Source of the DNA: Brachycybe producta | Taxonomy: Eukaryota; Arthropoda; Diplopoda; Playtdesmida; Andrognathidae | Reading direction: 5' to 3' | Assembly (NCBI GenBank): GCA_036925085.1 | Contig: JAUPFP010000171.1 | Location: forward strand, 1-64,000 | Length of the DNA stretch: 64,000 nt | In this document: positions 41,528-57,500 of the stretch, in pieces | Layout of the letters: each line of letters starts with the position of its first letter | How positions within the stretch are numbered: the stretch's first letter is position 1 | Program-made: the position numbers and the translations under genes | The notes under the pieces: generated by a model | The model's database searches: none | Told to the model about the DNA's origin: nothing | Seen by the model: only the letters and a program-made list of their open reading frames with translations

Positions 41528-41575
41528 ACAAAATTTAGATAAAATCATTTGTTGTTCATTATAGAACCTACCATA

Positions 41576-41995: not shown

Positions 41996-42141
41996 GTATT
42001 TACTCGATGTAGTCCTATAAATGTTTATTCAAGATTGTATACATCCCATAATGTTACATATACCCATTTTAATATATTTACTTTATATAAATAATATAAT
42101 AATACATGTATTGAAAAGGTAAAGGGTAAATAAAAATGTAA
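41996..42141. terminator. Convergent 3' ends with overlapping poly(A) signals
   Basis: A 146-bp A/T-rich gap between the rightward dUTPase and the leftward protease. An AATAAA for the rightward unit is at 42129-42134, and one for the leftward unit (TTTATT on +) is at 42024-42029. Each signal lies beyond the other, so the two 3' untranslated regions would overlap by about 100 bp. Confidence 0.55.
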
Positions 42142-42612
42142 TTAAAAAGCATACAGTGGTAAATATTTTTTTAGATTATAATTAATAAATGCGTGAACAA
42201 TTTTATCATTTCGCAAATAATTGTGTCGATGAAACGCAGAAACGATACTTTTCATAGATACATTAGAACATCTTAAAATAGAATAAAAAATACAATATTG
42301 GCCACATACGGCCGTTCTCGAATGTTGGAGTCTACGTGCATTGTAAGTCCAGGAGAGACTGTTTCTCGTAATGAACTGATTTATCTCGTCCGTCATTGGC
42401 TTCATTCCGTAACTGTCAAAATATTCAGCCATTCCATTATTGAAATAAATAGTGATCCAGTGAGATCCAGGCTCCGACCGCGCGTCCAGATTAACGATAT
42501 AAAGTTTATGATTCACTCTAAAAGGAAGTTGGTCCCGTGCGAATACACCGGCAAACACAAAATGCGTGGCTGGATGATGAAATAATAAATATTCCAGTTG
42601 ACTAGAATCCAT
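42142..42612 (-). CDS. Adenain-like cysteine protease (PRO)
   Basis: Maturation protease of Polinton virions, related to adenovirus endopeptidase. 156 residues. His51 (GSHWI), Asp66 (FDSYG), Gln96 (RLQH) and Cys103 (VCGQYC) are in the adenain order, and the Gln-to-Cys spacing of seven equals that of adenovirus protease (Gln115, Cys122). It is the last gene of the leftward unit and starts one base after the capsid gene stop. Confidence 0.93.
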   Translation of the reverse strand: MDSSQLEYLLFHHPATHFVFAGVFARDQLPFRVNHKLYIVNLDARSEPGSHWITIYFNNGMAEYFDSYGMKPMTDEINQFITRNSLSWTYNARRLQHSRTAVCGQYCIFYSILRCSNVSMKSIVSAFHRHNYLRNDKIVHAFINYNLKKYLPLYAF

Positions 42613-42613
42613 T

Positions 42614-43939
42614 TTAATAATCTATGATAACATTGCGATGATGATCCACTTCGATAATGGACTGGTAGATGGAATAAACGATGACATTCACCGTTGTGTT
42701 CAATGGATTTTTAAATTTCATATTGAGACGTAAAGATCCGTTTTTACTCAAGTTGAAATGGGATCCTGATAGAGCACTTTGATCATTGGTGAGATCGAAG
42801 GCATAAAGAGAATAGCCGTTTTTAAATTCCTCGAACGTCACATCTACACCGTCTGTGCCATAATACTTGCGGCACGCAGAAAATAGCTGCTGATAAAGAT
42901 GACCGTATTCTTTCGTACTGAAATTTGGACTGAACTGTATCCCCGGAAACTGGGTACCATCTACCTGTAGCTCGAGAAAACTAAGGTCCTTGTAATGAAA
43001 ATGAAAAGGATTCTTTTTTAAATTTCCAGCTCGTGCATCACTATCAACGAGTCCAATCATAACGAAACTCGGTAATATGCCATTACAAATGTTGATGTTA
43101 ATATCGTGGCCGCCGCTAGGTTCACTGAAAGAAGTGCATTTGATTCGGTTGATGGGATAAATAAAATTAGACTTCAACGACTGCTCAATATGCGTTTTAA
43201 TGATAGATGGATTTGGTATCACTTTTCGTACATAGAGGGTAGCAGATCTAATATCCACTTTGTAATCATTTTTGTCACTATCTGGTTTCAGTAAACAAAA
43301 GGCATCTTTTTGACGAATTAATTTAATGGAGAGATCGAGCATATTAGGTAAGAGCCGCCCCTGATGAAAAATATCTCCGTGAAGACGTCCGCACATATCC
43401 ATAATAGCACTCGCTTTTGATCTTTCGAAGCGTTGCGCTAATCCATCTGCCGGATCGGCGGTGGATGGTTTACGATCTTTAAAGGCAGCGATGGTGTCTT
43501 TGTAGAACATCTCCAGAGATAAATAAGGTTTATTCCCGGTGTTTTCGCTGCCTAGAAGGGTCGTTAAATAAGCTTTATATCCATAATCGTGATCAGTGGA
43601 ACTAATAATCGTATGCCCGAGAGTAACCGTAATTTCACTAAAAAGTGAGTGAAAAAACCCATTTATAGGTGTGACTTCGCAAGTAGCGTCCAATGGTTTT
43701 CCGTCCGCTTTTAAGATTCTTGCCTTCACATTCAGGTAAATATCAGAAGGATCTATGTATTCATCGGCATTTCCCATGATATTGAACTCTATCGTATTTT
43801 GGTCTTCGATACTGTTCACGGGATGGTATTCCTTAATGCAGTCATCCCGATTACTCGTTTGTGTCGCGGGCACGGTAAAAATATCCAATTCACAGCTCAT
43901 CCCGGGCCCCGAGTCATGATGTACGAGAAAGCCGCTCAT
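42614..43939 (-). CDS. Major capsid protein (double jelly roll)
   Basis: 441-residue protein of the Polinton/adintovirus hexon-like family, which builds the pseudo-hexagonal capsid shell. Recognised from the N-terminal signature FTVPATQTS, EYHPVNSIED, then IEFNIMGNADEYIDPSDIYL and a VKARILKADG stretch near residues 50-80, followed by PINGFFHSLFSEITVTLG. The size fits the usual 400-500 residues. Its start lies two bases after the stop of the basic core-like protein and its stop is one base before the protease start, so the three are tightly packed. The assignment to the major rather than another capsid protein rests on remembered family signatures. Confidence 0.85.
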   Translation of the reverse strand: MSGFLVHHDSGPGMSCELDIFTVPATQTSNRDDCIKEYHPVNSIEDQNTIEFNIMGNADEYIDPSDIYLNVKARILKADGKPLDATCEVTPINGFFHSLFSEITVTLGHTIISSTDHDYGYKAYLTTLLGSENTGNKPYLSLEMFYKDTIAAFKDRKPSTADPADGLAQRFERSKASAIMDMCGRLHGDIFHQGRLLPNMLDLSIKLIRQKDAFCLLKPDSDKNDYKVDIRSATLYVRKVIPNPSIIKTHIEQSLKSNFIYPINRIKCTSFSEPSGGHDININICNGILPSFVMIGLVDSDARAGNLKKNPFHFHYKDLSFLELQVDGTQFPGIQFSPNFSTKEYGHLYQQLFSACRKYYGTDGVDVTFEEFKNGYSLYAFDLTNDQSALSGSHFNLSKNGSLRLNMKFKNPLNTTVNVIVYSIYQSIIEVDHHRNVIIDY

Positions 43940-43941
43940 GT

Positions 43942-44418
43942 TTATAGGAGATTCACGAAATTGCTAGTTTTTCTTTTTTTACCCGAAGCTTTCTTTGCTG
44001 CGGTTTTCCTTTTCTTAGCGACTTTCTTCTTCGATGCTTTCCTTTTCACTGTACGCTTCGTACTGGCCACGGTTCTTCTATTTCCAGATGTTTTAGTTTT
44101 TTTCCGGCGCTTAGCTCCACCTGTCATTGTCTTCAAAAATTCATGCCCGGCTTCCGTTCCACGCCTTTTTAAGGCACTTTTGAAAAATTCCCCCGCTTCA
44201 ATATCGGATACGACGTTAGTTCCAGACTTTAACAACTGCTTACTTGCTGAGAGGGCTCCTTTTTTCAAAAAAGGGATCACGAAACGATATAACGAAGAGA
44301 AAAATCCGTGTCCCCGCTGATATTGAGATCCCACGAAGACGGGTAAAGAGGATCCAATTTGTTTATGATAATTATAACACGGATCAGACGCTGATCCACA
44401 ATAGTAAGGCACCCTCAT
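43942..44418 (-). CDS. Basic virion core-like protein
   Basis: About 158 residues from the ATG at 44418, chosen because it overlaps the minor capsid stop as ATGA; an ATG six codons earlier is also open. The N-terminal half has YYCGS, GSSLPVFVGSQYQRGHG and a hydrophobic stretch, FSSLYRFVIPFLKKGA, that could be membrane-active. The C-terminal half is extremely Lys/Arg-rich (KRKASKKKVAKKRKTAAKK), like DNA-condensing core proteins of adenovirus (pVII, pX). Similar small basic proteins sit between capsid genes in other Polintons. A role in packing DNA is inferred from composition and position. Confidence 0.65.
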   Translation of the reverse strand: MRVPYYCGSASDPCYNYHKQIGSSLPVFVGSQYQRGHGFFSSLYRFVIPFLKKGALSASKQLLKSGTNVVSDIEAGEFFKSALKRRGTEAGHEFLKTMTGGAKRRKKTKTSGNRRTVASTKRTVKRKASKKKVAKKRKTAAKKASGKKRKTSNFVNLL

Positions 44419-45680
44419 TTGTGAAAAATGGAACACGGACGAAAATGAACTGTGGCTATCACTACGTCTCCACTGGTAAATAAAATTTTACGTCCAAAGA
44501 CATCGCTTATACGCACTTCGATACTATGTATACTATCACGTGATACTCTTTTGTACTGTAGTTGATTGTAGATTTTGGTAACTCTCATTCCATCAGAATC
44601 CTGAAGATGAACGGGCCTCAATAAAGGTGAAAGTATATCCCCCACCGGCTGGTACTCGATGCAGTCGATATACACGAATAAGGAATGAATATCACGCTGA
44701 ATATCCGAAAGAAAGTCGGCCACCTTAATAATGGGAAGTTCCGACGTATTCCGATATTTGAACCAAGGATTCTTTTCACTATTTAATCTCGGATTAGCGA
44801 TATTGTCCATTCGTGTTTTGCTTTCTAACAATTGCTGATGATAATCTTTCATATTTTGTAGATCTTGTTTTGACTTGGCTAAATTTTCTTTTTTTTCATC
44901 ATACGAGGACTTTAAAATATTGTAATTAAATTCATTCGCTTCTTTTTGTAAACGAACCGGATTGATGAGTTTATCTTTGGTATCTTTATCGTCAGTCTTC
45001 TTTTTTTGTTCGTCTTGTATTTTTTGTTGTAAGACATTAACGAGACGCTGAATGGCTTCATCCCGTTTTCCATCGGGCCCAGGTATGAGGCCTTTTTGAT
45101 GTTGTAATTGATTTTCGAGCTCGTTTATTTTGTTTTGATATTCCATTTGGCTGGTATTCTTATCCTTAATGAGATTCTGATAGTTGGTGCGTGATTCCTC
45201 GCACGTTTTGAACATGACATTCACATTGTCCGCAGTTGTTTGCACCCTGGCTTCTTCTATTACCATATTTTCTTCCTCTTTGTCTATATTAGCTGTAGAT
45301 TTGTCTATTTTTTTAATCAATTCATTTTTGCTCGATTGAATCGAAGGATGCCTCAAATGAAGGGGCCCGAAATATTCATCGATATGAGAGTTGATGGCAT
45401 TCACGAGAAATCCGGGAGAATGATACGCCCCGCTAGGAACGCTAATATTGATGCTTAGGCTCCGCTCCAGATCTCTGATAATAATTTCACCTTCCTTTTC
45501 ATCCGCAATCTTTAACCAGGTACGTGAAAAATGAATCTCAGCCAAGGCAACTTCGTAATCTCCAGTAATTTCGATGGGTTTTGGGAGTTTCACGGTGTAA
45601 TTCGTTAAAGTGTTGTCCGGATAATATTTCATACTGCTATTACTCGGCAGTGTCACGTAAAAGTCTTGAGACTCGGTCAT
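44415..45680 (-). CDS. Minor (penton-like) capsid protein with coiled-coil insert
   Basis: 421 residues. The N-terminus carries the Polinton minor-capsid signature (FYVTLPSNSSMKYYPDNT, then LTNYTVKLPKPIEI and EVALAEIHFSRTW). The C-terminus, about 315-421, has the matching second half (VYIDCIEYQPVGDILSPLLR, YKRVSRDSIHSIEVRISD, VVIATVHFRP). Family members are regarded as penton-base-like single jelly rolls that form the capsid vertices. Residues about 115-310 are an unusual, highly charged Lys/Glu/Gln-rich stretch with coiled-coil appearance between these halves. The start overlaps the integrase stop and the stop overlaps the next start, both as ATGA. Confidence 0.85.
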   Translation of the reverse strand: MTESQDFYVTLPSNSSMKYYPDNTLTNYTVKLPKPIEITGDYEVALAEIHFSRTWLKIADEKEGEIIIRDLERSLSINISVPSGAYHSPGFLVNAINSHIDEYFGPLHLRHPSIQSSKNELIKKIDKSTANIDKEEENMVIEEARVQTTADNVNVMFKTCEESRTNYQNLIKDKNTSQMEYQNKINELENQLQHQKGLIPGPDGKRDEAIQRLVNVLQQKIQDEQKKKTDDKDTKDKLINPVRLQKEANEFNYNILKSSYDEKKENLAKSKQDLQNMKDYHQQLLESKTRMDNIANPRLNSEKNPWFKYRNTSELPIIKVADFLSDIQRDIHSLFVYIDCIEYQPVGDILSPLLRPVHLQDSDGMRVTKIYNQLQYKRVSRDSIHSIEVRISDVFGRKILFTSGDVVIATVHFRPCSIFHK

Positions 45681-46741
45681 TTTTGTAGTTGTTTCAAATC
45701 TCCCGCTTTAATCCAACTGTTGTGTTTATCAGCGTATCCTTTCCACTTCACCAAAAGTTGCCGGTGCCGTCCTTTTCCTTTTTCAGCTACAACTTTTTCT
45801 ACCCTCCAAAAATCGCTGTCTTTCTTGTCAATTTTTTGAAGTTCTTCCTCGTAAAACGTACCTTCTAATAGTTCTCCATCAATATCCACGAGACGGTATA
45901 CCGAAGGTATTCGGTCGATACGCGCAGAGATGGTGAAAACTTCGTCCGACCAATTGGGTAAGTAACCTTTTTCGAAAGTTAGCTTCGTCTTGGAAATACG
46001 AACACGGTCACCTACTTTGAACTTGGGCAATCTACTATTGGCTGATGGAAACAATCGTTTAAATACATCTTTTTCATTGGTAGATGAGACTTTCTCCGGA
46101 GCCATGCCAATGCTTCTATGATACGATGCATTGTATCCTTTCACCAGATGACTCAACTTATCAATGTACTGATAATTCCCTTTCGCTGTAAAATACCTCC
46201 ACATGCGTGATTTCAAAGTTCTATTAAAACGTTCGACAACGGCAGCTTTGACTTCGTTAAAAGTGGTATAAAATCCAATACCATTTTCTTTGAGAAAGGT
46301 CTGAAAGTTCTTATTCAGGAATTCTTTACCCCTATCCGATTGAATTTTTCTCGGCTTCCTTCCATCTTGCAGAATAATTTTTGAAGCAGCGATCATTTCC
46401 TTTCCAGTTTTTTGTTTTAATGGTTGAACCCAAGCATGTTTTGAAAAAACATCGATACAAGTTAAAAGATAGTTGTAACCCTTATTCTCTTTTTTGTAAG
46501 ACTGCATATCCACGAGATCCATCTGCCATACATCGTCTATTTTACTGACCAATGTTATATTTCTCGTAAATGTTCTTCTCACTGGTTTATGTAAAGTGTA
46601 GACATCTTGCGTTCGTAACCAGGCTTCAATTTCACCCCGAGTAAATTTCTTTCCAGTTGCCGCATGAAGGCGGTCCACACCTCCGAAAGACCCGCTGGAG
46701 GATGGATCGTAATAAATTTTTTTGAGTTCTTTGTTTTTCAT
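45677..46741 (-). CDS. Polinton integrase with C-terminal chromodomain (INT)
   Basis: Retroviral-type DDE integrase that inserts the element and makes the 6-bp target duplication. From the ATG at 46741 it has 354 residues; this start is preferred because it overlaps the previous stop as ATGA, and a start four codons earlier is open. The N-terminal segment has YYDPSSSGSFGGVDRL, typical of Polinton integrases. The catalytic triad is at about Asp75 (WQMDLVD), Asp136 (QSDRGKEF) and Glu170 (VVERFNRT). An SH3-like segment (KVGDRVRISK) follows. The last roughly 50 residues form a chromodomain (FWRVEKVVAEK, LLVKWKGY, NSWIKAGDL), which could steer integration to methylated-histone chromatin. That would fit its location in satellite DNA. 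Confidence 0.95.
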   Translation of the reverse strand: MKNKELKKIYYDPSSSGSFGGVDRLHAATGKKFTRGEIEAWLRTQDVYTLHKPVRRTFTRNITLVSKIDDVWQMDLVDMQSYKKENKGYNYLLTCIDVFSKHAWVQPLKQKTGKEMIAASKIILQDGRKPRKIQSDRGKEFLNKNFQTFLKENGIGFYTTFNEVKAAVVERFNRTLKSRMWRYFTAKGNYQYIDKLSHLVKGYNASYHRSIGMAPEKVSSTNEKDVFKRLFPSANSRLPKFKVGDRVRISKTKLTFEKGYLPNWSDEVFTISARIDRIPSVYRLVDIDGELLEGTFYEEELQKIDKKDSDFWRVEKVVAEKGKGRHRQLLVKWKGYADKHNSWIKAGDLKQLQK

Positions 46742-47340
46742 GATTCTTCCCATACGGGACGGTTAGATTCTTTGGTTTCTGGATGATAATCCCATCGCTT
46801 GTCGTTAGCTATGAGAGATCGAGGTACGTTCATTTTTTTCAGCTCCGTGATAAATGGCTCCCATCCTGGGGGGTCGTATCTAGTTTTACTGATAACGAGA
46901 TCTCTAGTAAGGTCCATAATATTGGTATTCGGCACGACTTGACCATTTATCAGAAGCTGATGCGATGAATTCCAACTCAATGGCCCTCTACCATCTTTTA
47001 TCAAATTGAGAAGACGACCGGCCTTCTTCTGTTGTGTCTTCGGCAGTTGGTTAACTATATCGCTGATACCTGATGATTGTTTTTCTTCAATGGGACTCGA
47101 AAAACCAGGGTCCTCTAATGTCACTTTCGTTACCTCTTTGGGTCTGTTCTCATAAATGGATTTATACCGGTGTTGTAATTGTCCTAGAAGTAAAACCTTA
47201 TTGAAGTTATCCAAGTTTTCTTCTTCTAAAATACGTTGAATGGCCTTTTCAATGTCTCTTAGAGTACGTTGAACGGGCGTTTTATTTTCTTGTCTTTCTC
47301 GATATTCAGCTTCCCAAGATTCAGCGGGGATGAGGATCAT
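46738..47340 (-). CDS. Conserved Polinton protein, function unknown
   Basis: About 200 residues from the ATG at 47340, chosen because it overlaps the upstream stop as ATGA and gives an N-terminus MILIPAESWEAEY. An open extension of 23 codons is possible but would run through the neighbouring gene. The C-terminal half (GPLSWNSSHQLLINGQVVP, then NIMDLTRDLV and PPGWEPFITELKKMNVPRSL) resembles a family I remember from many Polintons between the ATPase and integrase genes. No catalytic motif is seen. A virion protein is likely from its place among structural genes. Confidence 0.7.
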   Translation of the reverse strand: MILIPAESWEAEYRERQENKTPVQRTLRDIEKAIQRILEEENLDNFNKVLLLGQLQHRYKSIYENRPKEVTKVTLEDPGFSSPIEEKQSSGISDIVNQLPKTQQKKAGRLLNLIKDGRGPLSWNSSHQLLINGQVVPNTNIMDLTRDLVISKTRYDPPGWEPFITELKKMNVPRSLIANDKRWDYHPETKESNRPVWEES

Positions 47341-47696
47341 TTTCTCGGCCATGATGTTATTAAACCCGTTAACATCGACAATACGGGAGAAATTAACAGC
47401 GGAAGCCAACCCCCTTTTTGTTTGACGAGAAAGTTTTTCTTCGACTTTGGAGATGCTTTCGTAGTCACTAATTTATTCAGTACATGCCTATAGGGTCGTA
47501 ACTTTCTTTTTTCACGTTCACTCAGTACAATGTTAGAGTTCCCAATATTATGCGCGCAATCACACAAACACTGAATAAAATCCAAGTTGGAGTTCTTTAG
47601 AAGTTCTTTTTGAAGTCGCGGATTACTTTCCACAGCTACGTGTAATCTGTGAATGTTACGATCGAGACGTGAAGGAATTTTTTGACTTACTTTCAT
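47337..47696 (-). CDS. Small conserved Polinton protein with hydrophobic C-terminus
   Basis: 119 residues. Helical N-terminal part (RLDRNIHRLHVAVESNPRLQ, CDCAHNIGNSNIVLSEREKR), then a basic patch and a short hydrophobic, possibly amphipathic tail (GGWLPLLISPVLSMLTGLIT). The pattern of Asn-rich loop, basic patch and GG plus hydrophobic tail recurs in Polinton and adintovirus genomes at this place. Comparison with membrane-active adenovirus proteins (pVI or pX) is tempting but unproven. It is linked by ATGA overlaps to the ATPase upstream and the next gene downstream. Confidence 0.65.
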   Translation of the reverse strand: MKVSQKIPSRLDRNIHRLHVAVESNPRLQKELLKNSNLDFIQCLCDCAHNIGNSNIVLSEREKRKLRPYRHVLNKLVTTKASPKSKKNFLVKQKGGWLPLLISPVLSMLTGLITSWPRK

Positions 47697-48529
47697 CGTT
47701 GTTTAGGTAAAAATACAGCGGTATACTCTCCCGGAAATATATTCGTTCTGAGCCTAGAATTGTCATCCGCATTCTGCGTGAGATCAATCATCAAGTAACT
47801 GTACGGATCACGAGTACTCTGGTTAAAGGCATCGATCATAAACTTGGTGTTACCAGGATACATCTGATGAGACAAATGAGCAATTTGAGATTTGTCACGA
47901 GGGTTTTTAAAAAGAACCAGATAAGAGGCATTCAAAGAAATGGTGCGCTGATACGGGTTCTTGTCAAAAATATTTTGAGTAATAAATATAACACTTATAT
48001 TTCTATGATGCGAATCACACGTAAAGAGCTGAGAAACACCCCTATCCACATCTTGAAACAGATCGTCGAGTACAATAAGCTGGTTTCTATCGCATCTTAG
48101 AGTCTTCATGTCAGGCATTCCTTTTAGAAATGTGGCTCGAGTCCCATAAAGTGAATACCAGTCTTGATATTGAGAATAGTACCACGTTACTCTTTCCGGT
48201 GGGGGTTTAATCATTCCCCTGGCATGATCCAAAATTTTCTTAACGAAGGTTGTTTTCCCGCAATTGCTGGGACCGGCAATAATCATCCTAAACGGTGCCT
48301 TCAATGGAATGAAGGAACCCTCTTTTTCCATGATCGATACGGAATGTTGCGGTAGTTGTATATTGGCAGGTGCTTCCGTTTTAGTAGAAATAGCGATGTT
48401 CGTTGTTTCGAGGATAAGCATAAGAGCCCCTATGCAGCCCATAACGATGTATTTTATACTCGGTTTCCTTTTTTGCGGCATCACCGTTTCCTCTATCGTT
48501 AAGCGCGATATTTCATCTTGCTCTACCAT
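47693..48529 (-). CDS. Packaging ATPase, FtsK/HerA type (ATP)
   Basis: 278 residues. Walker A is GPSNCGKT at about 86-93 and Walker B is LIVLDDLF at about 151-158, followed by HHRNISVIFITQN, as in genome-packaging ATPases of Polintons and related viruses. It would pump DNA into the capsid. The N-terminus has a likely membrane segment (about 27-42, YIVMGCIGALMLILET), an unusual addition to a packaging ATPase. The stop overlaps the following start as ATGA. It heads the tightly packed structural gene block, with a 44-bp gap upstream. Confidence 0.93.
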   Translation of the reverse strand: MVEQDEISRLTIEETVMPQKRKPSIKYIVMGCIGALMLILETTNIAISTKTEAPANIQLPQHSVSIMEKEGSFIPLKAPFRMIIAGPSNCGKTTFVKKILDHARGMIKPPPERVTWYYSQYQDWYSLYGTRATFLKGMPDMKTLRCDRNQLIVLDDLFQDVDRGVSQLFTCDSHHRNISVIFITQNIFDKNPYQRTISLNASYLVLFKNPRDKSQIAHLSHQMYPGNTKFMIDAFNQSTRDPYSYLMIDLTQNADDNSRLRTNIFPGEYTAVFLPKQR

Positions 48530-48573
48530 TTTAGCTTCAAGAATGTAATGAGAATGAGTACATAACGTGATAT

Positions 48574-48942
48574 TTATTCAGTATTAGTACAAGCTTTGAA
48601 AATTTCACATCGCCACTCATATTCTAACCAATGGTCGATCAGATACAAAATTCCTTGAATGATGACGCTTCTAATCGGTTTGGCATATTCGATCCAGCGG
48701 TTTAACACAAATAAGACATTCACACTCTCGAATAAATCATTTATTTTTTTCCTTTCGTATTCCTCGGGATACATCGTACAAAAATGAGACGGAACTTGAC
48801 TTCCATCACCCGCTTTTAGGAGTTCGTCTTGATGAACACAGTCAGCACACGCTTTATTCCAACCTGGTAATTTTATCATGGTTTTTATCGCATCACGAGC
48901 TTGTGCGCGAATACCAGGAAAATCCGTTGGCGTATACAACAT
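48574..48942 (-). CDS. Unknown small Polinton protein, Cys-containing
   Basis: 122 residues with no family I recognise. It has a CADCVHQDE motif near residues 32-40, a further SHFC near 52-55 and two Cys near the C-terminus, so metal binding is possible. The middle is hydrophobic and helical (VNVLFVLNRWIEY, SVIIQGILYLIDHWLEYEW). It lies between the exonuclease-like gene and the ATPase on the same strand, with short gaps on both sides (88 and 44 bp). Confidence 0.55.
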   Translation of the reverse strand: MLYTPTDFPGIRAQARDAIKTMIKLPGWNKACADCVHQDELLKAGDGSQVPSHFCTMYPEEYERKKINDLFESVNVLFVLNRWIEYAKPIRSVIIQGILYLIDHWLEYEWRCEIFKACTNTE

Positions 48943-49030
48943 TCTGAGTAAAATAAATTGTACATATTAGCTTATTTCTGTTTTTGTACCCATAATCCAA
49001 AAATATAAGCCTCATTTTTTGCACAATGTG

Positions 49031-49531
49031 CTATTCCATTTCTCCGTTTTTATGACGACTACATGTAAAGTCAACTTCTTGAGGGCCAAAGATTGTCAGT
49101 AAATTCTCATATTTCATACAAAGGCCTAGTTTCTCGAGGTTTATGCTAGGAATATTTAATTTCATTAATACATTTTTTTCCACAGTGCCCCCTTTATAAG
49201 CAAATAAGGCATTTGAATTTTTCTCAGAGGCATGCGTATACAAGCTACGTAAAACTTTCAGTAATGTTGAAAATGCAACATCATCGGTATCATTTCTGTA
49301 AGAAAGACCATGAATATGTGCCGTCACGAATTGCATTGTTCTGACATCCTTTTCAGTAAACAGTCTATTTTGAGGAAGTCGAATAAACATATTATTCGGG
49401 TGTGAATCACTGATAGTATAGTATCCCAATTCCTTAATGTAAAAATCACTTCCAATTTGAAATCCATCACAATCAATAACGGTGGATATATTGCCGAAAA
49501 TAGGCATTCTGGAAATTAATTTTTCATTCAT
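49031..49531 (-). CDS. RNase-H-fold exonuclease-like protein (tentative)
   Basis: 166 residues. The order of segments VIDCDGFQIG..FYIKELGYY, IRLPQNRLF, a Q..THIHGLSY-like helix and FAYKGGTVEKNVLMKLNIPS followed by NLEKLG resembles a group of proteins common in invertebrate genomes and mobile elements that look like degenerate DEDD 3'-5' exonucleases (Asp-x-Asp/Glu-Gly-Phe as first motif). I cannot confirm the later acidic residues, so activity is uncertain. The C-terminus (DFTCSRHKNGEME) is short of the Cys/His tail that relatives often have. It is divergent from the RING gene across a 370-bp region with p53-type sites. Confidence 0.4.
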   Translation of the reverse strand: MNEKLISRMPIFGNISTVIDCDGFQIGSDFYIKELGYYTISDSHPNNMFIRLPQNRLFTEKDVRTMQFVTAHIHGLSYRNDTDDVAFSTLLKVLRSLYTHASEKNSNALFAYKGGTVEKNVLMKLNIPSINLEKLGLCMKYENLLTIFGPQEVDFTCSRHKNGEME

Positions 49532-49710
49532 AAGGCTGAATCAAACCGAGAAAAGAAAAAACATACCTAATGCCGTGAAATCCGAGGCTTCGGCTAATGA
49601 GTATATCTTGCCATAGCGGATACGTTTCTCCAAGTACTTATACCCCTTAGCTTATTCCATTCTAGTTTCCAAGGGGTGTAAATAAATATCGACATTGACA
49701 AAACAAGAAT

Positions 49711-49750
49711 AAACATGTTCAGACATGTTTAGGCTTGTTCAAACATGCCT
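49711..49750. promoter_or_regulatory. Four contiguous p53 half-sites (p53 response element)
   Basis: Four decamers in direct succession, no spacer, each matching RRRCWWGYYY at all ten positions. The first is AAACATGTTC. The four differ among themselves at degenerate positions only. A p53-family tetramer binds two such half-sites, so this is two abutting full sites. The preceding decamer (49701-49710) matches 8 of 10. The chance of one decamer is 1/4096 under equal base use. p53 family proteins of vertebrates and insects are known to share this consensus. Confidence 0.85.
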
Positions 49751-49791
49751 CGATGTGATCCAAAGGGTGTGTCTAAATCATGAACTTATGA

Positions 49792-49811
49792 AAACATGTA
49801 TAGACATGATG
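49792..49811. promoter_or_regulatory. Second, degenerate p53-like site
   Basis: Two abutting decamers with intact RRRCWWG cores (AAACATG, AGACATG) but imperfect YYY ends, 9 of 10 and 8 of 10. It lies 41 bp to the right of the perfect cluster and nearer the RING gene. Confidence 0.5.
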
Positions 49812-49904
49812 ACTCATCTGTCTAATCTGTCCTACTGAAATACTCCTGAGGATGTACCATGTCTGGCCCCGTTAACACTATTTCTCATACCTAATGGTAA
49901 TCTT

Positions 49905-50464
49905 TTGGAACATGATAATTCCCGAGCCTATTGTCAAACCTTGGTTGGGCATGATGCAACTATGTCTTCTTATAATTCATGTATTTCATTTGTAGACATT
50001 GCATCTGATTCTGAAACGGAGCCTGAAACTGTATCGAATGCCTCTACTAGAAGTGCTGCAGTTAATAGGCATCCAATTGTCTATCTCGATGACTCCAGTA
50101 AGTAATTAGATTGGTCGTAAAAAAATTTAAAAAAAATAATGAAATTGCAACTGCAGATGACACGACCGATAGTGAAATTCTCCTCGAACTGATGGGAAAT
50201 CCACCTGTAAGCCGAAAAGAAGAACTTCTGGAGAAACTACTATCCTACGATGATGAAGAAACGGCGACTATCAAATATTGTACTATTTGTTTAGTGAAGG
50301 GTGCACGGGTTGTATTTGACCCTTGTAAGCATCAAGCTGCCTGTAAGGCATGTACAACAACGTTATTAGAAATGGAAAGTTTTTTATGCCCAGTGTGTAG
50401 AAACCCCATTTCAAATGTAATTGATGTTTACCAGCCCTTAACAGACTTATTGCCAATTCAATGA
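49905..50464 (+). CDS. RING-finger protein, probable E3 ubiquitin ligase
   Basis: The C-terminal region carries a complete C3HC4 RING: CTIC, VVFDPCKHQAACKAC, CPVC, with spacing C-x2-C-x11-C-x-H-x3-C-x2-C-x11-C-x2-C, then a short tail ISNVIDVYQPL. This placement at the extreme C-terminus and the VVF.PC.H...C..C pattern are typical of IAP-type and MDM2-like ligases. The region before it is acidic and Ser/Thr-rich and includes SIM-like stretches (FVDIASDSE, IVYLDD), as in SUMO-targeted ligases. No BIR domain is visible. The locus is not one continuous open frame, through about one break or an unrecognised intron, and the start is uncertain. It faces the p53-type cluster and converges on the Bcl-2-like gene. 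Confidence 0.7.
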
Positions 50465-50475
50465 ATATCATCTAA

Positions 50476-50481
50476 AATAAA
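50476..50481 (+). terminator. Poly(A) signal of the RING gene
   Basis: AATAAA 12 bp after the RING stop codon, followed within about 25 bp by a long hairpin. Confidence 0.6.
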
Positions 50482-50506
50482 ACCTGAAGTTCTTTTATAT
50501 ATTGAA

Positions 50507-50590
50507 CACTTCTGCAACAGACCTCTGCCTGCCTTGGGATACCAAGTTTGCTATTCCTAAGCAGGCAGAGGTCTGTGGAATGCAGAAGTG
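50507..50590. repeat. Long near-perfect hairpin between convergent genes
   Basis: Inverted repeat with arms at 50507-50532 and 50561-50590: CACTTCTGCA then ACAGACCTCTGCCTGC pairs with its reverse complement, apart from a 4-nt bulge, around a 28-nt loop. It sits exactly between the 3' ends of the RING (+) and Bcl-2-like (-) genes. Shape and arm length of about 26 bp would allow a stable RNA hairpin from either strand. Confidence 0.85.
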
Positions 50591-50647
50591 TCATGAGTTA
50601 TTATAAAGAAATGAAACAATACTGCAAAAAATTTCAGCATGTAACAT

Positions 50648-50653
50648 TTTATT
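50648..50653 (-). terminator. Poly(A) signal overlapping the Bcl-2-like stop codon
   Basis: AATAAA on the minus strand shares bases with the TAA stop of the leftward gene. The extreme compactness matches the rest of the element. Confidence 0.5.
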
Positions 50654-51158
50654 GCATTCGTATTAATAAATATAACAAAGTGCTAATCATCAGTAATTGC
50701 GGAACCACATGAATAACGTTACTCGGAGTGTCGTTAGGTGTTGCGTAGACATCCTGCATCGCAGCCCATGATCCATTATCTCGAAGCCACGATGCTGATG
50801 ACTTGAACACGTATTCACCAATATGCACTGCCGTTGCTTCCTCGAATCCGGATCTTGCCAGTTGGAGGACGAGTGCGTAAGTCACTATAATTTTACCGAA
50901 TGATGGTGATCCTCGATAAATTTCGTCCAACAAGAAGGTTAATTCTTGGTTCAGATGTGACACAGTTTTTAAAGTTGTTGCTATGGATTCGAAAGCTTGA
51001 ATATCCTTATTTCGAGCTTGTTCGGCGAGTTTGTAAATTGTTCGTGAAAAGTTGGAATTCACGGTTTCGTGCGATTGTTTGGCTATATGATACACATCAA
51101 TGGCAATTTTAGTAGATTCCTGCATGTTGAACACCTTATTCGTAAAAGCTAAGCACAA
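50649..51158 (-). CDS. Bcl-2-like apoptosis regulator
   Basis: 169 residues, or 158 from a second ATG at 51125. BH1-like segment at about 86-101 (SFGKIIVTYALVLQLA, compare NWGRIVALFAFGGVLA of Bcl-2 relatives; Trp-Gly-Arg replaced by Phe-Gly-Lys). BH2-like segment at about 124-138 (WLRDNGSWAAMQDVY, compare WIQDNGGWDAFVELY). Hydrophobic tail anchor at about 151-166 (VVPQLLMISTLLYLLI). All-helical prediction and total length fit small viral Bcl-2 proteins such as adenovirus E1B-19K. It would act at the outer mitochondrial membrane, holding BH3 proteins; pro-survival is the usual role of viral copies but is inferred. It converges on the RING gene, and an LTR lies just upstream. Confidence 0.82.
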   Translation of the reverse strand: MCLAFTNKVFNMQESTKIAIDVYHIAKQSHETVNSNFSRTIYKLAEQARNKDIQAFESIATTLKTVSHLNQELTFLLDEIYRGSPSFGKIIVTYALVLQLARSGFEEATAVHIGEYVFKSSASWLRDNGSWAAMQDVYATPNDTPSNVIHVVPQLLMISTLLYLLIRMQ

Positions 51159-51204
51159 CTAACATTAAAAAGTATAAAAGTGGTTGGCCTTCATATATAT
51201 ATAT

Positions 51205-52102
51205 TGTAACGAACCACATTCAGGGGTCTAATAGACTTATCAAAAAGTATCGTAGCGCTCTTTCGGGCGATCGGAAAGTGGTTGGCTAGGCCACTAATTC
51301 TATTATGGTCCGGGAGGAAGGGAACAAATTAGTCCCATACGTTTCCTCACAAGTTCCTCTTTCAAGAACCTTTACAGTTTTAAGGATCTTTTGTTGTCTG
51401 CTACTCCCCGGGCTTTCGCCCGTAAAAAGCTGGTTGATCGTGCTGTCTTCAGAAGTCTCATCTAGTACTGGAGAGCCAGGTTTACACCTGGGTTGACAGT
51501 GCTAGATGACAAAATGTTGAAGTCCTTCGTTTTGTTTTTAAAAGATAAAAATAACTTCAACAACTTTTTAACTATAATTTCCAGTTTATTTACATCTCAT
51601 CATCTCTAGGCAAATTTGGGCATAATGTCTGTGTCCAAAGAATGCTTTCAAGACTGCTTCTTCAAGTCTCCTTTACACAAAAATACATGGTTATTTATAC
51701 CCAAAAAGAGGATACTGAGAACACTTTCTCAGTATTCTCTGATTGGGCAAAATCAAACTTAAAAACCAAACTGGCCAATCAACATGATTGACCAGTGGTC
51801 ACTAAAATATAGACAAGTGATTCATCGTAATCAAAACAAAATTACAAAAGAAAGTTTTCACCCCATAGACCCAATGCTGAGGCTTATCAAGTCGATCTCT
51901 TTGTATTAAGGGGTGGGACTGGGAGGAAAAAGGGACCCAAGACCCAAGACAGGATATTGGCATCGTCATCAGCTGATGGAACTGGGTCAATCCTCTGTAC
52001 GTGAGTACAGAGGGTTGACAAAGTTCCAGGCCACTCTAAAAATAAACAAACGATCCAAAAATAACTAAACGAGCCAGGGTCGCTCCTGGACGTATCGTTT
52101 CA
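51205..52102 (-). repeat. 3' LTR of the nested element
   Basis: 898 bp, about 99.5% identical to 57501-58398. On the minus strand it runs TGAAACG...CGTTACA. It ends 46 bp upstream of the Bcl-2-like frame and in the same orientation. It contains a TATAAATA near 51692-51699 (minus strand) and an AATAAA downstream of it. Confidence 0.97.
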
Positions 52103-52110
52103 CCCCCCCC
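52103..52110 (-). other. Polypurine tract
   Basis: Eight G on the minus strand directly abutting the 3' LTR, the expected place for plus-strand DNA priming. Confidence 0.8.
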
Positions 52111-52855
52111 AACTAAGATGGAAGTTCACCCTGAACTTACGTCAAATAACTTAGGGGACCTTGATAAGCCACCGCAAAAAGGTTGTCTACAAAACCCAAA
52201 AACAAAATACTGTATCACAATTTGCATACAAAAAAAACGATAAAAAATTTTCGAATTTGAAAATAAAATATCACAATAAAAATCACAGGTTTTCATTATT
52301 CGATTTGATCACAACAGGATGACAAACCCCCAACCCTCAAATTTCCGTTTTACTCAATTACTATTTTAATTTATTCGACTAGAATATTCCACCCAAAATT
52401 TGTAATTAATCTCAGTACTCTTCATAAAATAACGAAAACTTCCCCAAAATAAAAACAAGGAGTTAAATAAAAATTTCTTTAAAATAAACATTTAAAAAGG
52501 AATCACAACCCCCCCTTTCCCAAGCTGGACCTAGCTATCACATCTCTGCCCACAGAGACAACAATTTTAAAAGAAAAACCCCCCTCTTTAATCTTTAAGG
52601 CAGATCTGACTAAATAATAATAAAAAAAACGCTTAAAAGAGAAATAATTTTGTTCATTAAATTAACCCTTTTTTGACCACAATTTTGACTAAAATACCCA
52701 AGTTAAAAACCCTTTTTAACCCTCAAGAAAACGAAAATTAAAAATATTTATCAATAAATGAAATGATACGCTTCCTCGCTGCATCCCGTTCCTCCGGTTT
52801 CTTCGGCGTGGGTCGGAACTGGTCCACGTCAATCCGTTGTCGTTCCTGGTCGTTT
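52111..52855 (-). other. Non-coding 3' region of the LTR element
   Basis: About 745 bp, very A/T-rich, between the second ORF and the polypurine tract. No open frame or known motif is seen. In an autonomous relative, coding sequence would be expected before this point. Confidence 0.6.
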
Positions 52856-55800
52856 CTAATGATCCGGTTCCAGATGGCCCTGTTGGTCCCTGGCTCCTGG
52901 TTCTGCCTCCGTTGTCAAGATGTTCAGGTCTTCCAGCATACGCAGCGGGACGACTTGAGATTGTGGGATTGCTCCCAAAACGATGGACTCCATAAAGTCG
53001 AGCTGCTGTGTGGCCAGGTGAGCGTTCCCATCCTGCTCGGTCAATCTGTTGTGGACGACGTTCCTATGTCCTCTGCTGCTCGGAATCAAGGTGGCCACCA
53101 TCGACGAGATAACCACCTCCAGAATGCCGCACGTTGATTTATCCCATGGTTGTGGATATACTAGCTGAAGGGTCCCTGGCTCGGCGTTGTTGTGAAGGAC
53201 AACGACGGGCCAGTGATCCAACACCTGGATGATCACCGCTGTCCATGGCCTGTCCAATCGCGGACGGATTCTGTCTTCCTTGATCCCATCGTTGCTATGG
53301 AAGAAACCTAAATATCGGAATGAATTTCTGCCCCAACGACGACTAAAAGATACCAAACCGTTACGCAACAGCCGAAACTGTTGCCGGTTGGACAACTTCC
53401 CATCGGACATGTCCAGTGTTCCTTTCGGCCATTGTTGCGGGGGCGGCGGTGGTGAGATCTTCGGGATCGCTCCCGTGGCTGGTCCAGACGTTGCTTTGCT
53501 GGGATGGCCACGTTCTCCCTCGAAGATCGCATCTCGTCGCTGCCTCCTCCTCTCTGTGGCACCTTGTCCTTTCCGGGGTTGTCCCGGGATGTGAGGATGA
53601 CGACCTGAATGGCTTCTGGATGTCTCGATCCTTGGCTGCTCGTATCTCGTTTCCCTTCTTGTTTCCTCATGAGGTCGGCTCCTGACGACATCTGGCTGGC
53701 GTCTGGGATCCGTAGGCCTCTCACTGATGAATTTATCTCGCTGGGCCCTAGCGGGATTGCTCGCCGCAGGCGGGCGAGTGTCTCTCGTAGGCACCACGAC
53801 TTTTGAGGAAATGGAGACCTTCTCCATTGCTGTGGGTAAGTTAAGAGGTTTATTAGGCCGGTGAACATACCCACGGACGATTGGCTGGTCCACGGTGACC
53901 CAGCTGTTGGACGGAGAGACCTCCCTTGACGATTTCCTTTTCGTTAACGTCTCTCCTACCTCCGGAACTCTTATCGGAGATCGCCCTCGAGCTGCCAATT
54001 CTCGATTCTGGCCATCGACCCATTCTTTCATGGCCAGTTTGTCCGCATTTCTTTCGCCTTTCGTTCGGCCGCTTCTTCTGGATCCTCCCATCTCTGCAGG
54101 CAGACATCCATCCAAGAGGCTACCTGGAGGAGTATCCATCTCCTCAGGGGGTCTTGGGAACTGCAACTTAGGATCCCTTGCTGGCCCATCATATACAGTA
54201 TCTGGCTCCGGATTGACATTTCGGCGTCGCTCCGGAGGAGAATGAACAAGAGGAACGAAATTAGTTGGCTCACCCTCGGGTTGTTTCCGTTTTTTCGTTT
54301 GAGCAGATCCTGAGGCTTTTTCCGTAGAAGGCATCGAAGGCGCGGCATTGCTGCCGGAGGAAACCCCTGCAGCGATGGCGTTGTCGTCATCCTCTTCTCC
54401 AAAAAGCAGCCTCAACCACTCCGGTGTCATTTCACCGGCTTCCAAAAACTGCTCCACTTCAAACATCTCCTCACTTCCAGATTTTCCACTGCCATTAGAT
54501 TCAGCCATCCTCTTTTCAAATTTATCCAAATTAAACGCTGACACTTTTTTTTCTTTGACAAAATTCAAACCGCGACTATTCTTTGCAGAATGAAGATTCG
54601 AAGTGGCATCAAAAATGGCGGTCGTCTTCTCACGTGATCCTGTGGGGTTCTCACTTTCAATTTCCGGCCGGAAGTGGGAGGAGCTTTTCTTCTTAGAAAA
54701 TTCTCTCTCCTCTTTTTTCCTCACTAGGCGGTGCTCCGTATAGCGGCAAATTTGAATTTTTGCCGTTTCTACATCCAATTCAGACATTAATTCATCTTTT
54801 AAGATGGTTTTAGCGCTGGATTTCTTTTTCCCCACTCCTGAATGATGCTTTCTATCATCTATTCCAGGTCCTACACGTGTCTGCACACGGGAAGCTGTAG
54901 ATGTCTCTTTCTTAGAGACATTTTTGGCCATCCCATGTGTTTCCTCTCTTTCCTTTTTCACTGAAGTTTCTTCCGAAATTTCACTGGATTGTTTGTCGAC
55001 AGTGATTTCAGCTAGGCCTTTTTTACTCTTATCTTCATGAGGATTATTTCGGTCAATCCTGACTGAGATTAGTCCTCTCCTTCGAAGATCCACAGTTTCT
55101 TCTTGAAACTCTTTTTTCTCAATGGCGGTTACTCCAAATTTCACCGTCATCTCATTTCCAATTTTCACAGGGGTGGTTACTCCAGATTTCACTGCCACCT
55201 GCTCCACAGGGATGGGTACTCCAAATTTCGCCATCACCTGATCATGTTCCACAGGGATGGGTACTCCAAATTTCGCCATCACCTGATCATTTTCCACAGG
55301 GATGGGTACTCCAAATTTCGCCATCACCTGATCATTTTCCACAGGGATGGGTACTCCAAATTTCGCCATCACCTGATCATCACCGAGTTTTGGTACGATA
55401 TCCGTTTTGGATGTCATAGTAAACTCACTTTGCAGTGGCACTGTTTGCTGACCTTTCCCAGAAATAGTCTGAAACCCTTCACTCACAAAGTTACCCTTTT
55501 CAGGTGAAGTTACTCCAAATTTCGCTTCAACCTGCATTTTCTTCACCATGGGTTTAACCTCGAAATCCATCTTGGCTTTCCCACTTTGCAGTGGTTTCTT
55601 TAGTTGACCTTCCCCTTGGATGGTTTGACTTCGGATTCCAACTGCAACTCTCCCAGATGTCAGCCTTGTTGATTCTTCTTGTTCTGCTGTGCCCCAACTC
55701 CTTTGTATCGTTGCTTCCGCCGTATGTCGATCATCTTGGCACAGGGCTGTGGATTTTTCGGACGTCTCTAGCTGTCGTTTCCATTGACACAGACCTTTGG

Positions 55801-55954
55801 ACTCCGCCTTGTTTCCTCCCTGTCGGACCTTGATGCACATAACCCTTGGTTGCTCAGAAATTTCCTCTTGTTGATCAGCAGCCTGAACCTCTTGAAGTCT
55901 CTCCAAAATGACATCGTTTTCTTCTTCCTTATTCACAACTACTTCGGGCGTCAC
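52856..55954 (-). CDS. Large second ORF of the LTR element, unknown function
   Basis: About 1,032 residues in a frame different from gag, beginning close to the gag stop; the frame is open a little upstream of its first usable codon, so access by ribosomal frameshift or read-through, as in gag-pol elements, is plausible. It has no protease (D-T/S-G), reverse transcriptase (YxDD) or integrase signature. The N-terminal third carries tandem 15-residue repeats (core AKFGVPIPVE). The middle is charged, Ser/Pro/Arg-rich and disordered-looking. The C-terminal roughly 150 residues look folded (YLGFFHSNDGIK, WTAVIIQVLDHWPVVVLHN, PWDKSTCGILEVVISSMVAT). It replaces pol in position but not in sequence. 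Confidence 0.7.
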   Translation of the reverse strand: MTPEVVVNKEEENDVILERLQEVQAADQQEEISEQPRVMCIKVRQGGNKAESKGLCQWKRQLETSEKSTALCQDDRHTAEATIQRSWGTAEQEESTRLTSGRVAVGIRSQTIQGEGQLKKPLQSGKAKMDFEVKPMVKKMQVEAKFGVTSPEKGNFVSEGFQTISGKGQQTVPLQSEFTMTSKTDIVPKLGDDQVMAKFGVPIPVENDQVMAKFGVPIPVENDQVMAKFGVPIPVEHDQVMAKFGVPIPVEQVAVKSGVTTPVKIGNEMTVKFGVTAIEKKEFQEETVDLRRRGLISVRIDRNNPHEDKSKKGLAEITVDKQSSEISEETSVKKEREETHGMAKNVSKKETSTASRVQTRVGPGIDDRKHHSGVGKKKSSAKTILKDELMSELDVETAKIQICRYTEHRLVRKKEEREFSKKKSSSHFRPEIESENPTGSREKTTAIFDATSNLHSAKNSRGLNFVKEKKVSAFNLDKFEKRMAESNGSGKSGSEEMFEVEQFLEAGEMTPEWLRLLFGEEDDDNAIAAGVSSGSNAAPSMPSTEKASGSAQTKKRKQPEGEPTNFVPLVHSPPERRRNVNPEPDTVYDGPARDPKLQFPRPPEEMDTPPGSLLDGCLPAEMGGSRRSGRTKGERNADKLAMKEWVDGQNRELAARGRSPIRVPEVGETLTKRKSSREVSPSNSWVTVDQPIVRGYVHRPNKPLNLPTAMEKVSISSKVVVPTRDTRPPAASNPARAQRDKFISERPTDPRRQPDVVRSRPHEETRRETRYEQPRIETSRSHSGRHPHIPGQPRKGQGATERRRQRRDAIFEGERGHPSKATSGPATGAIPKISPPPPPQQWPKGTLDMSDGKLSNRQQFRLLRNGLVSFSRRWGRNSFRYLGFFHSNDGIKEDRIRPRLDRPWTAVIIQVLDHWPVVVLHNNAEPGTLQLVYPQPWDKSTCGILEVVISSMVATLIPSSRGHRNVVHNRLTEQDGNAHLATQQLDFMESIVLGAIPQSQVVPLRMLEDLNILTTEAEPGARDQQGHLEPDH
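55204..55380 (-). repeat. 45-bp coding tandem repeat in the second ORF
   Basis: About four near-identical 45-bp units (starts near 55204, 55249, 55294, 55339) encode a 15-residue repeat. More diverged relatives with the core A/VKFGVT/P lie on both sides, about nine in all. The period is a multiple of three, so the frame is kept. Confidence 0.92.
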
Positions 55955-55977
55955 TACTTTGGGGCTGAGTGGCGCCC

Positions 55978-57399
55978 TTAGCAGTTTAAAGCCTCTTCTG
56001 TTAGATTTTCCTCATGAAAATAGTGTGTCACTCCATTGATATCGACCGGCACCATTCTCATACCATTCGGCAGGACGTGAGTTTCATAAACCTCAACAGT
56101 ATTTGAAAACTTCGTTGCCGTCGTTGCCAATGGTTCGTCGATCCTGCTTACAGTGGTCGATGTTACCGTTGGAACGTTCCTTTGTTCAGTCCTTGGTTTT
56201 CCGGGGTTTGGGCAAGCACGTGCAATGTGGCCCGCCTCCCCACATCGGTAACAGGTGAGCGGCCCTTGGTATTGATTTCGCCAAGGAGCCCTCTGCTTGT
56301 TTTGATGCTCATTTGTCTGTTTCGATTCCTGGTAAGCCTTTTCAGGCGGGTTCGACATCTTGTCTTGTCCGCTTGAAGTTCTAGGTTGACTCTGCTGTTT
56401 TGGTTGACTTCCTTGATTCGGCTGGCTTACGCCCGCTCTGGTTGTAGTCCCAGCCGACGTTTTGTAAACCAACTCTCTCTCATCCACCAGTTCCCCTTCA
56501 GTTTGAGTACTGAAGCGCACAAACTCATGGTAATGATCTTTTGGTGCTCCATACAAATGTTTTCTTAGTGCTGGTAGCAGACTCTTTCGGAGCGTAGCTA
56601 TCAGCAACGATTCATCGTCATGTGGATGAATTCTTCGATACATCTCGGCGTATTTTTCAGCATAGACTCTGAAAGTTTCATGGTCTTGCTGACGCCGTTC
56701 CACCAATTCTCGACTCATGCGGACCTTCTGGTCAGGCAGGAGGAATTCAGCAATGATTCCCTCCTTCATGGCCGTCCACGTAATCTCTTTTCCCTCATAA
56801 GCAGAGCGGAAGTGTGCGAGCCATTTGATTGCACGCTTCCTCAAGAGCCCTGCAAAGTGCCTGCATCTCTGCAGGGAGTTCCAGTCGTGCGCCGTAGCGA
56901 TGTCTTCAAATTCTTCTATGTAGAGGAGGATGTTGTCATCACCGTCGTACTTCGAAAATCCCTGCAGAGGATGTAACGAATTTCTCTCAGAGTATGGCGT
57001 AGGTCCCAGGTCCGGTGTCCATTTGGTAGTTTCATCCGGACCGAGCTTTCGCCCGGGTTCAATCGATTCCAATTCAGTGTTGATTGAGCCCGCTCTGCTC
57101 CGTTCGTCGCCCATAATCTGACGAACCAACTCATCCTGTTTCTCTTTAGACAGTTTCCCAATGATGTCGGCAATGGCGGCGTGTTCTGGCGTCTTGCTTC
57201 CATCGTTGGACTGTACCTCAGGCTTGACAGCAACAGGAGTCGGTGGAAGTACATTAGCTTCGTCCTTGGCCTCCTCCAGTTGAGTACGTTGCCTCTTCAC
57301 GATCTTCTTCAACGCGGCAGTCTTCTTCTTTCGACGTCTTTCCTCCCTCAGTCTCTCGAGATCCCTCAAGTCCTTGAGTAGTTTCTGTAGACTGGTCAT
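55978..57399 (-). CDS. Gag protein with CCHC zinc knuckle
   Basis: 473 residues. Lys/Arg/Glu-rich N-terminal helix (about 1-60). The central part, about 145-300, has the Ty3/gypsy gag pattern (LQGFSKYDGDDNILLYIEEF, RCRHFAGLLRKRAIKWLAHF, LPDQKVRMSRELVERRQ...ETFRVYAEKYAEMYRRI), which forms the capsid shell. Then comes a Gln/Pro/Ser-rich linker and one zinc knuckle, CYRCGEAGHIARAC, at about 383-396 for RNA binding. The start ATG lies about 100 bp inside the 5' LTR and primer site. Gag would assemble particles that package the element RNA. Confidence 0.93.
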   Translation of the reverse strand: MTSLQKLLKDLRDLERLREERRRKKKTAALKKIVKRQRTQLEEAKDEANVLPPTPVAVKPEVQSNDGSKTPEHAAIADIIGKLSKEKQDELVRQIMGDERSRAGSINTELESIEPGRKLGPDETTKWTPDLGPTPYSERNSLHPLQGFSKYDGDDNILLYIEEFEDIATAHDWNSLQRCRHFAGLLRKRAIKWLAHFRSAYEGKEITWTAMKEGIIAEFLLPDQKVRMSRELVERRQQDHETFRVYAEKYAEMYRRIHPHDDESLLIATLRKSLLPALRKHLYGAPKDHYHEFVRFSTQTEGELVDERELVYKTSAGTTTRAGVSQPNQGSQPKQQSQPRTSSGQDKMSNPPEKAYQESKQTNEHQNKQRAPWRNQYQGPLTCYRCGEAGHIARACPNPGKPRTEQRNVPTVTSTTVSRIDEPLATTATKFSNTVEVYETHVLPNGMRMVPVDINGVTHYFHEENLTEEALNC

Positions 57400-57480
57400 T
57401 TCTGACGTCGATGTTTTCTCTATGCCGCGTGCTTTTCAACACGATCTTTGTAGCTTATGGAGTAACAAGGTATTCAACTA

Positions 57481-57496
57481 CCCCGCACCTCCACCA
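57481..57496 (-). other. tRNA primer-binding site
   Basis: Four bases inside the 5' LTR, the + strand reads CCCCGCACCTCCACCA, the look of a tRNA 3' end with CCA. The minus strand (TGGTGGAGGTGCGGGG) would therefore pair with that tRNA to prime reverse transcription. I do not assign the tRNA. Confidence 0.7.
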
Positions 57497-57500
57497 AATT

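Follow-up and report, generated by a model that had tools for sequence, protein, structure and literature searches.

The cellular p53-MDM2 feedback loop places a p53 element beside the gene of a RING ubiquitin ligase, a p53 response element being two or more RRRCWWGYYY half-sites with a spacer of 0-13. Mobile elements can carry such sites as well: passages of two studies report them in human endogenous retrovirus LTRs (LTR10b/MER61), including a non-canonical site of five half-sites in a subtelomeric element, and in LINE-1 promoters, which bind p53 (PMC5580475, PMC5031199). Adintoviruses are defined, in passages of PMC11071296, by a PolB with an N-terminal OTU-like domain, a BLASTp-recognisable hexon and an integrase with a chromodomain, and anti-apoptotic genes are mentioned in them; the main text of that paper nowhere contains “response element” and names p53 once, about an adenovirus oncoprotein. 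The Burro giant Gypsy elements of planarians are mobile elements with BIR, RING and BCL2-like motifs, but they are LTR retrotransposons, unlike a Polinton, and a p53 site is not mentioned in passages of PMC6431247. The locus described here lies in a window of 64,000 nucleotides (the whole stretch of DNA that was analysed). It resembles LTR10b/MER61 and LINE-1 as a mobile element with p53 half-sites; however, those are human retroelements, whereas this is a protein-coding DNA virus-like element of an arthropod with its half-sites beside apoptosis-type genes. With adintoviruses and animal Polintons that have anti-apoptotic genes it has in common an integrase with a chromodomain and adenovirus-like genes. 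No earlier report of a p53 response element in a Polinton was found in searches of an open-access collection of papers, in agreement with a preliminary description of this DNA, which knew of none. To our knowledge, the signals that wake Polintons, which are widespread virus-like elements, are largely unknown. If the promoter described below is read by p53, the host damage alarm may be both trigger and target for one Polinton lineage, and p53-responsive mobile elements would extend from human retroelements to an arthropod DNA virus-like element, with many diverged copies in one genome as natural replicates.

The Polinton and its accessory genes

By most features tested the element is a Polinton, as the preliminary description had it: terminal inverted repeats, a 6-bp target duplication, an rve integrase with chromodomain, a packaging ATPase, a capsid homologue and a weakly matched protease were all found. 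Its features are as follows.

35107..58751, unstranded: complete Polinton with termini AGTAGT...ACTACT, inverted repeats, read directly
35101-35106 and 58752-58757: 6-bp target duplication CACGTT, read directly
37949..41527, plus strand: presumed DNA polymerase B region, in-frame stop at 40874-40876, two pieces searched apart
41576..41995, plus strand: dUTPase (Pfam, E = 4.9e-34)
42142..42612, minus strand: adenovirus-type protease (Peptidase_C5, E = 0.0062, below cut-off)
42614..43939, minus strand: presumed major capsid protein homologue, at least 60 homologues, best 52% identity among the matches listed
45677..46753, minus strand: rve integrase with C-terminal chromodomain (Pfam)
47693..48529, minus strand: packaging ATPase (Pox_A32 above the Pfam cut-off, Adeno_IVa2 below)
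49031..49531, minus strand: left gene, 166 aa, on one side of the divergent promoter
49962..50097, plus strand: RING gene, predicted first coding exon, acidic
50157..50464, plus strand: RING gene, second exon, C-terminal C3HC4 RING; predicted protein 147 aa
50649..51125, minus strand: Bcl-2-like gene, 158 aa, convergent with the RING gene; BH1-/BH2-like motifs and a hydrophobic C-terminus
51201..58398, minus strand: Gypsy-type LTR retrotransposon inserted in the Polinton, 902-bp LTRs with 6 mismatches; Retrotrans_gag, zinc knuckle

The capsid label is taken by us from knowledge of the protein family; the homologue had no meaningful Pfam match, and a search of viral contigs with the protein and its alignment returned no related loci. 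The name PolB is likewise our assumption, from position and recall, and a Pfam search of both pieces of the region gave no PolB and only a weak Endonuclease_7 match. Of the features that define adintoviruses, the chromodomain on the integrase is present (Pfam). The window copy is not intact, because of the Gypsy-type insertion in its right part and the in-frame stop. The Gypsy-type element is richer in GC than the DNA around it, and its coding part contains a 45-bp tandem repeat (55203-55380). The whole Polinton is embedded in a very long 14-bp satellite array of the GTTGAACGTTTAAG type (1-35100 and 58758-64000), the strand orientation of which flips near position 15,700.

An exonuclease-like and a RING gene had been proposed on either side of the divergent promoter; the divergent arrangement and the RING were found, whereas the exonuclease-like label gained no support from Pfam or PHROGs, and searches placed the left gene in no family (best Pfam E = 0.23, none in PHROGs). 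The dN/dS of the left gene was 0.28 to 0.55 in 11 of 12 loci compared and undefined in the twelfth. Three genes at 12 loci gave 36 comparisons, with coverage low or gapped at some loci; 33 of the ratios fell between 0.18 and 0.59, and the three exceptions (0.73, 1.15 and one undefined) all came from one close copy (L024). These ratios suggest purifying selection on the genes.

The right gene, which carries a predicted 59-bp intron, is a predicted IAP-type RING ubiquitin ligase by its C-terminal zf-C3HC4_3-type RING (Pfam, E = 9.3e-12). Its nearest RINGs in the PDB were those of BIRC3 (1.1e-5) and BIRC2 (3e-5), followed by CBL, MYLIP and others; the MDM2 RINGs matched at 8.8e-4 and weaker. The likeness to the p53-MDM2 loop consists of a p53-type element beside a RING gene, with MDM2 RINGs among the PDB matches; the Polinton protein is short, however, and IAPs, CBL and MYLIP all match its RING better than MDM2 does. 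In the piece searched with Pfam, no BIR was reported beside RING-type domains and chance-level matches, so the protein is not an IAP proper. We take its N-terminal half (49962-50156) to contain two acidic SUMO-interaction-like stretches, which together with the C-terminal RING would recall RNF4-type SUMO-targeted ligases. The Bcl-2-like protein matched Pfam Bcl-2 with E = 4.8e-4 (21.1 bits, below the 31.4 cut-off) and Bcl-w in the PDB at 0.0027; its AlphaFold model is all-helical and poor (pLDDT 43), and a homologous-protein search with it found none. An IAP-type RING and a Bcl-2-like protein as neighbors would fit a p53 circuit.

The decamer array and the host p53-family gene

Direct reading and consensus scoring confirmed four abutting decamers (dec1-dec4) with spacer 0, each a 10/10 match to RRRCWWGYYY, and the weaker decamer and degenerate pair reported on either side of them are as described.

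49633..49642, minus strand: TATA box of the leftward promoter, TATAAGTACT; core string in 54/55 family loci
49701..49710, unstranded: dec0, the decamer preceding the array, AAACAAGAAT, 8/10; identical in four distant loci compared
49711..49750, unstranded: dec1-dec4, AAACATGTTC AGACATGTTT AGGCTTGTTC AAACATGCCT, read directly
49792..49811, unstranded: degenerate second pair, AAACATGTAT AGACATGATG, 9+8

The degenerate pair is probably the remnant of a second promoter unit, which is fuller in diverged copies. In sequence terms the array thus fits the definition of a p53 response element. The 20-mer RRRCWWGYYYRRRCWWGYYY occurs in the 64-kb window at three places without mismatch and at one with 2 mismatches, all in the 49711-49750 cluster; four matches at ≤2 mismatches were reached by 9 of 100 shuffles, so the count alone is not special, and what sets the array apart is its perfect matches. 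When the 23.6-kb element was simulated 150 times under a first-order Markov model, no run of four abutting decamers scored above 34/40, against 40/40 in the element itself, and no abutting pair above 19/20; all abutting pairs of ≥18/20 in the element lie inside the array cluster. Chance alone as the origin of the array is ruled out by this simulation. The probability of 1 in 2.8e14 given earlier nevertheless overstates the case, because a promoter unit of ~91-95 bp is tandemly repeated in relatives and the decamers need not be independent.

When 320 palindromic permutations of the consensus were scored on the array, the p53 consensus ranked first, and several runners-up (scores 38 and 37) merely read the array in a shifted register or with similar letters. 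Palindromes of the glucocorticoid type and plain CATG palindromes, judged by eye, were set aside, since dec3 has a CTTG core and the register is exactly 10 bp; p53 fits better.

The genome searched comprises 295 Mb in 442 contigs. By its COX1 (contig C442) the host is a millipede: the best 6 of 120 matches listed are Diplopoda, with Antrokoreana gracilipes and Abacion at the top (85%). Nuclear contigs also contain COX1-like stretches (C1:12697422 and C17:4027709, ~79-81% to an insect query), probably mitochondrial DNA copied into the nucleus. The host has a p53-family gene at C133:148028-148899, with three PF00870 matches above cut-off (E = 8.3e-12); among the best 60 of 102 PDB matches, its joined exons matched p63, p73 and p53 domains at 1e-53 to 1e-43, with chain 7pc6 the best at 1e-58. 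The DNA-contact residues R248, R273, A276, C277, R280 and S241, in what we take to be human p53 numbering, are kept in the host protein (CFGSCVGGLNRRPI, RVRICACPGRDR). An open frame near the gene contains HYDILNKIKESLELADLVP, which presumably resembles the p63/p73 tetramerisation helix. We infer that the host p53-family protein would be able to read the array.

We give a probability of roughly 0.6 to the reading in which the array is a p53-family response element through which host p53 switches on the flanking genes, the RING and Bcl-2-like proteins then blunting the death response. The array stands at the center of a divergent promoter in a Polinton (an adintovirus-like provirus) of a millipede. 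DNA damage or the element's own replication would activate the host p53-family protein, which would bind the tandem half-sites as a tetramer. Binding would more plausibly activate than repress, driving the small conserved left gene leftwards and the small RING ubiquitin ligase gene rightwards, and would time both to DNA damage or to the replication of the element, during which the RING and Bcl-2-like proteins may restrain the death response in a protective role. This reading draws on the array and its retention through the family, on the scarcity of internal-branch changes at dec2-dec3, on the host p53-family gene and on the RING and Bcl-2 similarities. Reading of host p53 activity by the element, as proposed in the preliminary description, is thereby partly supported at the level of sequence, and the combination suggests a Polinton that senses and answers a host death signal. 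A more specific version, in which host p53 would induce a viral IAP-type RING protein with SUMO-interaction-like motifs that damps p53 or downstream apoptosis in the manner of the p53-MDM2 loop, with the viral Bcl-2-like protein guarding the mitochondrion, is doubtful.

The array in related copies and sister Polintons

A promoter DNA search yielded 68 candidates, of which 40 including the window were scored and the other 39 aligned. All four decamers are perfect in 11 of these 39 copies, while dec2 and dec3 are both perfect in 35; a group of 13 copies scores 9-10-10-9 across dec1-dec4, and in most of the diverged copies dec1 reads AGACATGTTG (9/10). A perfect dec1 is the state of part of the Polinton family. 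Addition of 16 loci through RING DNA and diverged promoters gave 55 family loci; a perfect 20/20 site is present in 48 of them and an abutting pair with both decamers ≥9/10 in 54, the sole locus without such a pair (L047) having no alignment to the window across the array. In the 39 aligned copies and in the diverged copies whose promoters were read, these sites fall within the array. Among the loci added through RING DNA (n = 3) the array is kept in two and the stretch is absent in one. The presence of the array in many loci is partly ascertainment, because they were found by promoter similarity; loci found through the RING gene are less biased towards the array.

A search with the RING protein (102 candidates scored, 88 matches listed) supplied 14 further loci for comparison; places of the family outside the loci compared include C19:2474435, C65:553509 and several short RING fragments. 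Arrays survive in six of the 14 distant loci (L072-L077); their best pairs score 19 or 20 of 20, and the left gene is 66-90% identical where alignable. In the other eight, no pair of ≥18 was found and the promoter stretch does not align to the window: four (L078, L079, L081, L085) align on the RING side only, two (L080, L082) only right of the array and one (L083) nowhere, and in L084 the left gene and RING are joined with the promoter missing.

Sister Polintons were located through the Bcl-2 family, for which the genome search listed 19 matches; sister-lineage copies above the cut-off were among them, the window family's own Bcl-2-like gene was absent from them, and five loci (L067-L071) were compared. 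L067 and L071 are copies of another Polinton; identity to the window element is 74% for the integrase, 65% for the ATPase, 54% for the left gene and 33% for Bcl-2 in L067, and 54% for the left gene and 45% for Bcl-2 in L070. In L067, L070 and L071, Bcl-2 lies directly upstream of the left gene on one strand, and no RING match and no array were found. RING and array are likewise absent from L068, a fragment that carries Bcl-2 and a portion of the left gene, and from L069, which belongs to a more distant Polinton and contains a Bcl-2-like frame. Across the five sister loci a single pair reaches ≥18, an isolated 8+10 at L070:1639 that does not lie between the two genes or in them. L067 (C17:1067500-1075500), together with nine places of equal score and frame length, represents a second multi-copy Polinton family; its Bcl-2 is above the Pfam cut-off, and the two of its copies that were read (L067, L071) have no RING and no p53-type array.

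The preliminary description had named, as what would refute a p53 site, sisters that share the accessory genes but have no p53-type cluster. Such sisters exist as far as the left gene and Bcl-2 are concerned, but they lack the RING gene too, so the array goes with RING. Either the two arrived as one module that inserted between Bcl-2 and the left gene, or the sisters lost them together. Capture of the RING gene and a p53-responsive promoter as one module, perhaps from a host p53-controlled gene, is a tentative proposal, given less than even odds and compatible with a p53-family response element. Bcl-2 adjoins the left gene in L067, L070 and L071, and RING plus array stand between the same two genes here, as capture would predict; the predicted intron of the RING gene and RING-like places at 27-40% identity elsewhere in the genome (among the matches listed) point the same way. 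An ancestor with RING and array, both lost in the sisters, fits equally, however, and the Bcl-2/left-gene interval of L067 contains a degenerate best pair of 17 of 20, a score that chance produces in 3% of intervals of this kind and that hints at a site of greater age; the searches identified no donor gene.

Change at the half-sites and other readings of the array

In 19 diverged loci, differences from the window amount to 4% in dec0, 23% in dec1, 4% in dec2, 4% in dec3 and 9% in dec4, against 11-21% in the flanks, dec1 varying as much as the flanks or more. In four of the six distant loci, where the flanks differ by 18-28%, the cells that differ number 0/40 in dec0, 2/40 in dec2, 8/40 in dec3 and 7/40 in dec4, the last two being nearly as variable as the flanks. 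These differences argue that dec0 to dec2 form the older core and that four perfect decamers are a recent refinement in part of the family.

Changes were counted on a tree of 48 unique loci. At dec2-dec3 the total is ordinary (17, where the median 20-bp window has 23; 110 of 410 windows stand below it), with 3 changes on internal branches versus a median of 9 per 20-bp window (12 of 410 as low) and 14 on terminal branches versus a median of 14. Over dec2-dec4 there are 6 internal changes, a count as low as this being seen in 26 of 400 windows, and 21 terminal ones, equal to the median. Over the whole 40 bp, 145 of 390 windows have as few internal changes (15), and the terminal count (33) exceeds the median of 28; owing to the variability of dec1, the whole array is not unusually conserved. 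Relative to 311 flanking noncoding sites with 153 internal and 215 terminal changes, the internal deficit at dec2-dec3, an interval chosen after looking, gave P = 0.039 (Fisher, one-sided) and P = 0.0135 (binomial). Few internal and normal terminal changes would be expected if selection acts as long as the element is alive and drift sets in once a copy has inserted, but the effect is modest. The TATA box of the leftward promoter falls in the lowest-change stretch, and this block is at least as constrained as the array. A TATAA box right of dec3, absent from the window, is present in 16 of 50 loci scored, 15 of which are diverged copies.

The preliminary description had also argued for selection from decamers that differ only where the consensus allows. 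In the window copy the differences are indeed confined to permitted positions, but on the 48-locus tree substitutions in dec2-dec4 had no bias toward permitted letters (internal 2/6, terminal 8/21; expected fraction 0.43). Changes that are not steered to p53-permitted letters would suit a real site for another factor, be it a host protein that prefers a related 10-bp palindromic repeat or one encoded by the element, with a likeness to p53 sites that arose by convergence. The same reading gains from dec0, which at 8/10 is kept as well as dec2 and more than a purely p53-based reading predicts, and from the change of CATG to CGTG in dec1, common among close copies, which lowers the p53 match. We consider it unlikely all the same, given that 40 bases in exact 10-bp register fit the p53 consensus above all 319 other palindromes tried and that the host p53-family protein has the contact residues.

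Still less probable is that the array is a tandem-duplication product of the promoter repeat with no p53-site function, its survival reflecting recent common ancestry. The ~91-95-bp unit does duplicate readily (fourfold in L059, more than once in L025, L050 and others), many copies are recent and nearly identical, and neither the total numbers of changes nor the internal count over 40 bp is out of the ordinary. Duplication of this kind, however, sits poorly with decamers that differ from each other at permitted positions only, with the different internal and terminal branch rates at dec2-dec3, and with dec0 and dec2 kept in distant loci while the flanks diverge as above.

In L059 (C1:10431300-10433600) the repeated unit of ~91 bp includes the array and the fourth array is less perfect, an arrangement that recalls the enhancer repeats of small DNA viruses. 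A promoter identical to that of the window is found in three further copies (C171:68047, C91:330243 and C77:607282; L001, L003 and L004). One of these lies 18.4 kb further along the contig of the window and may therefore stem from a segmental or satellite-borne duplication.
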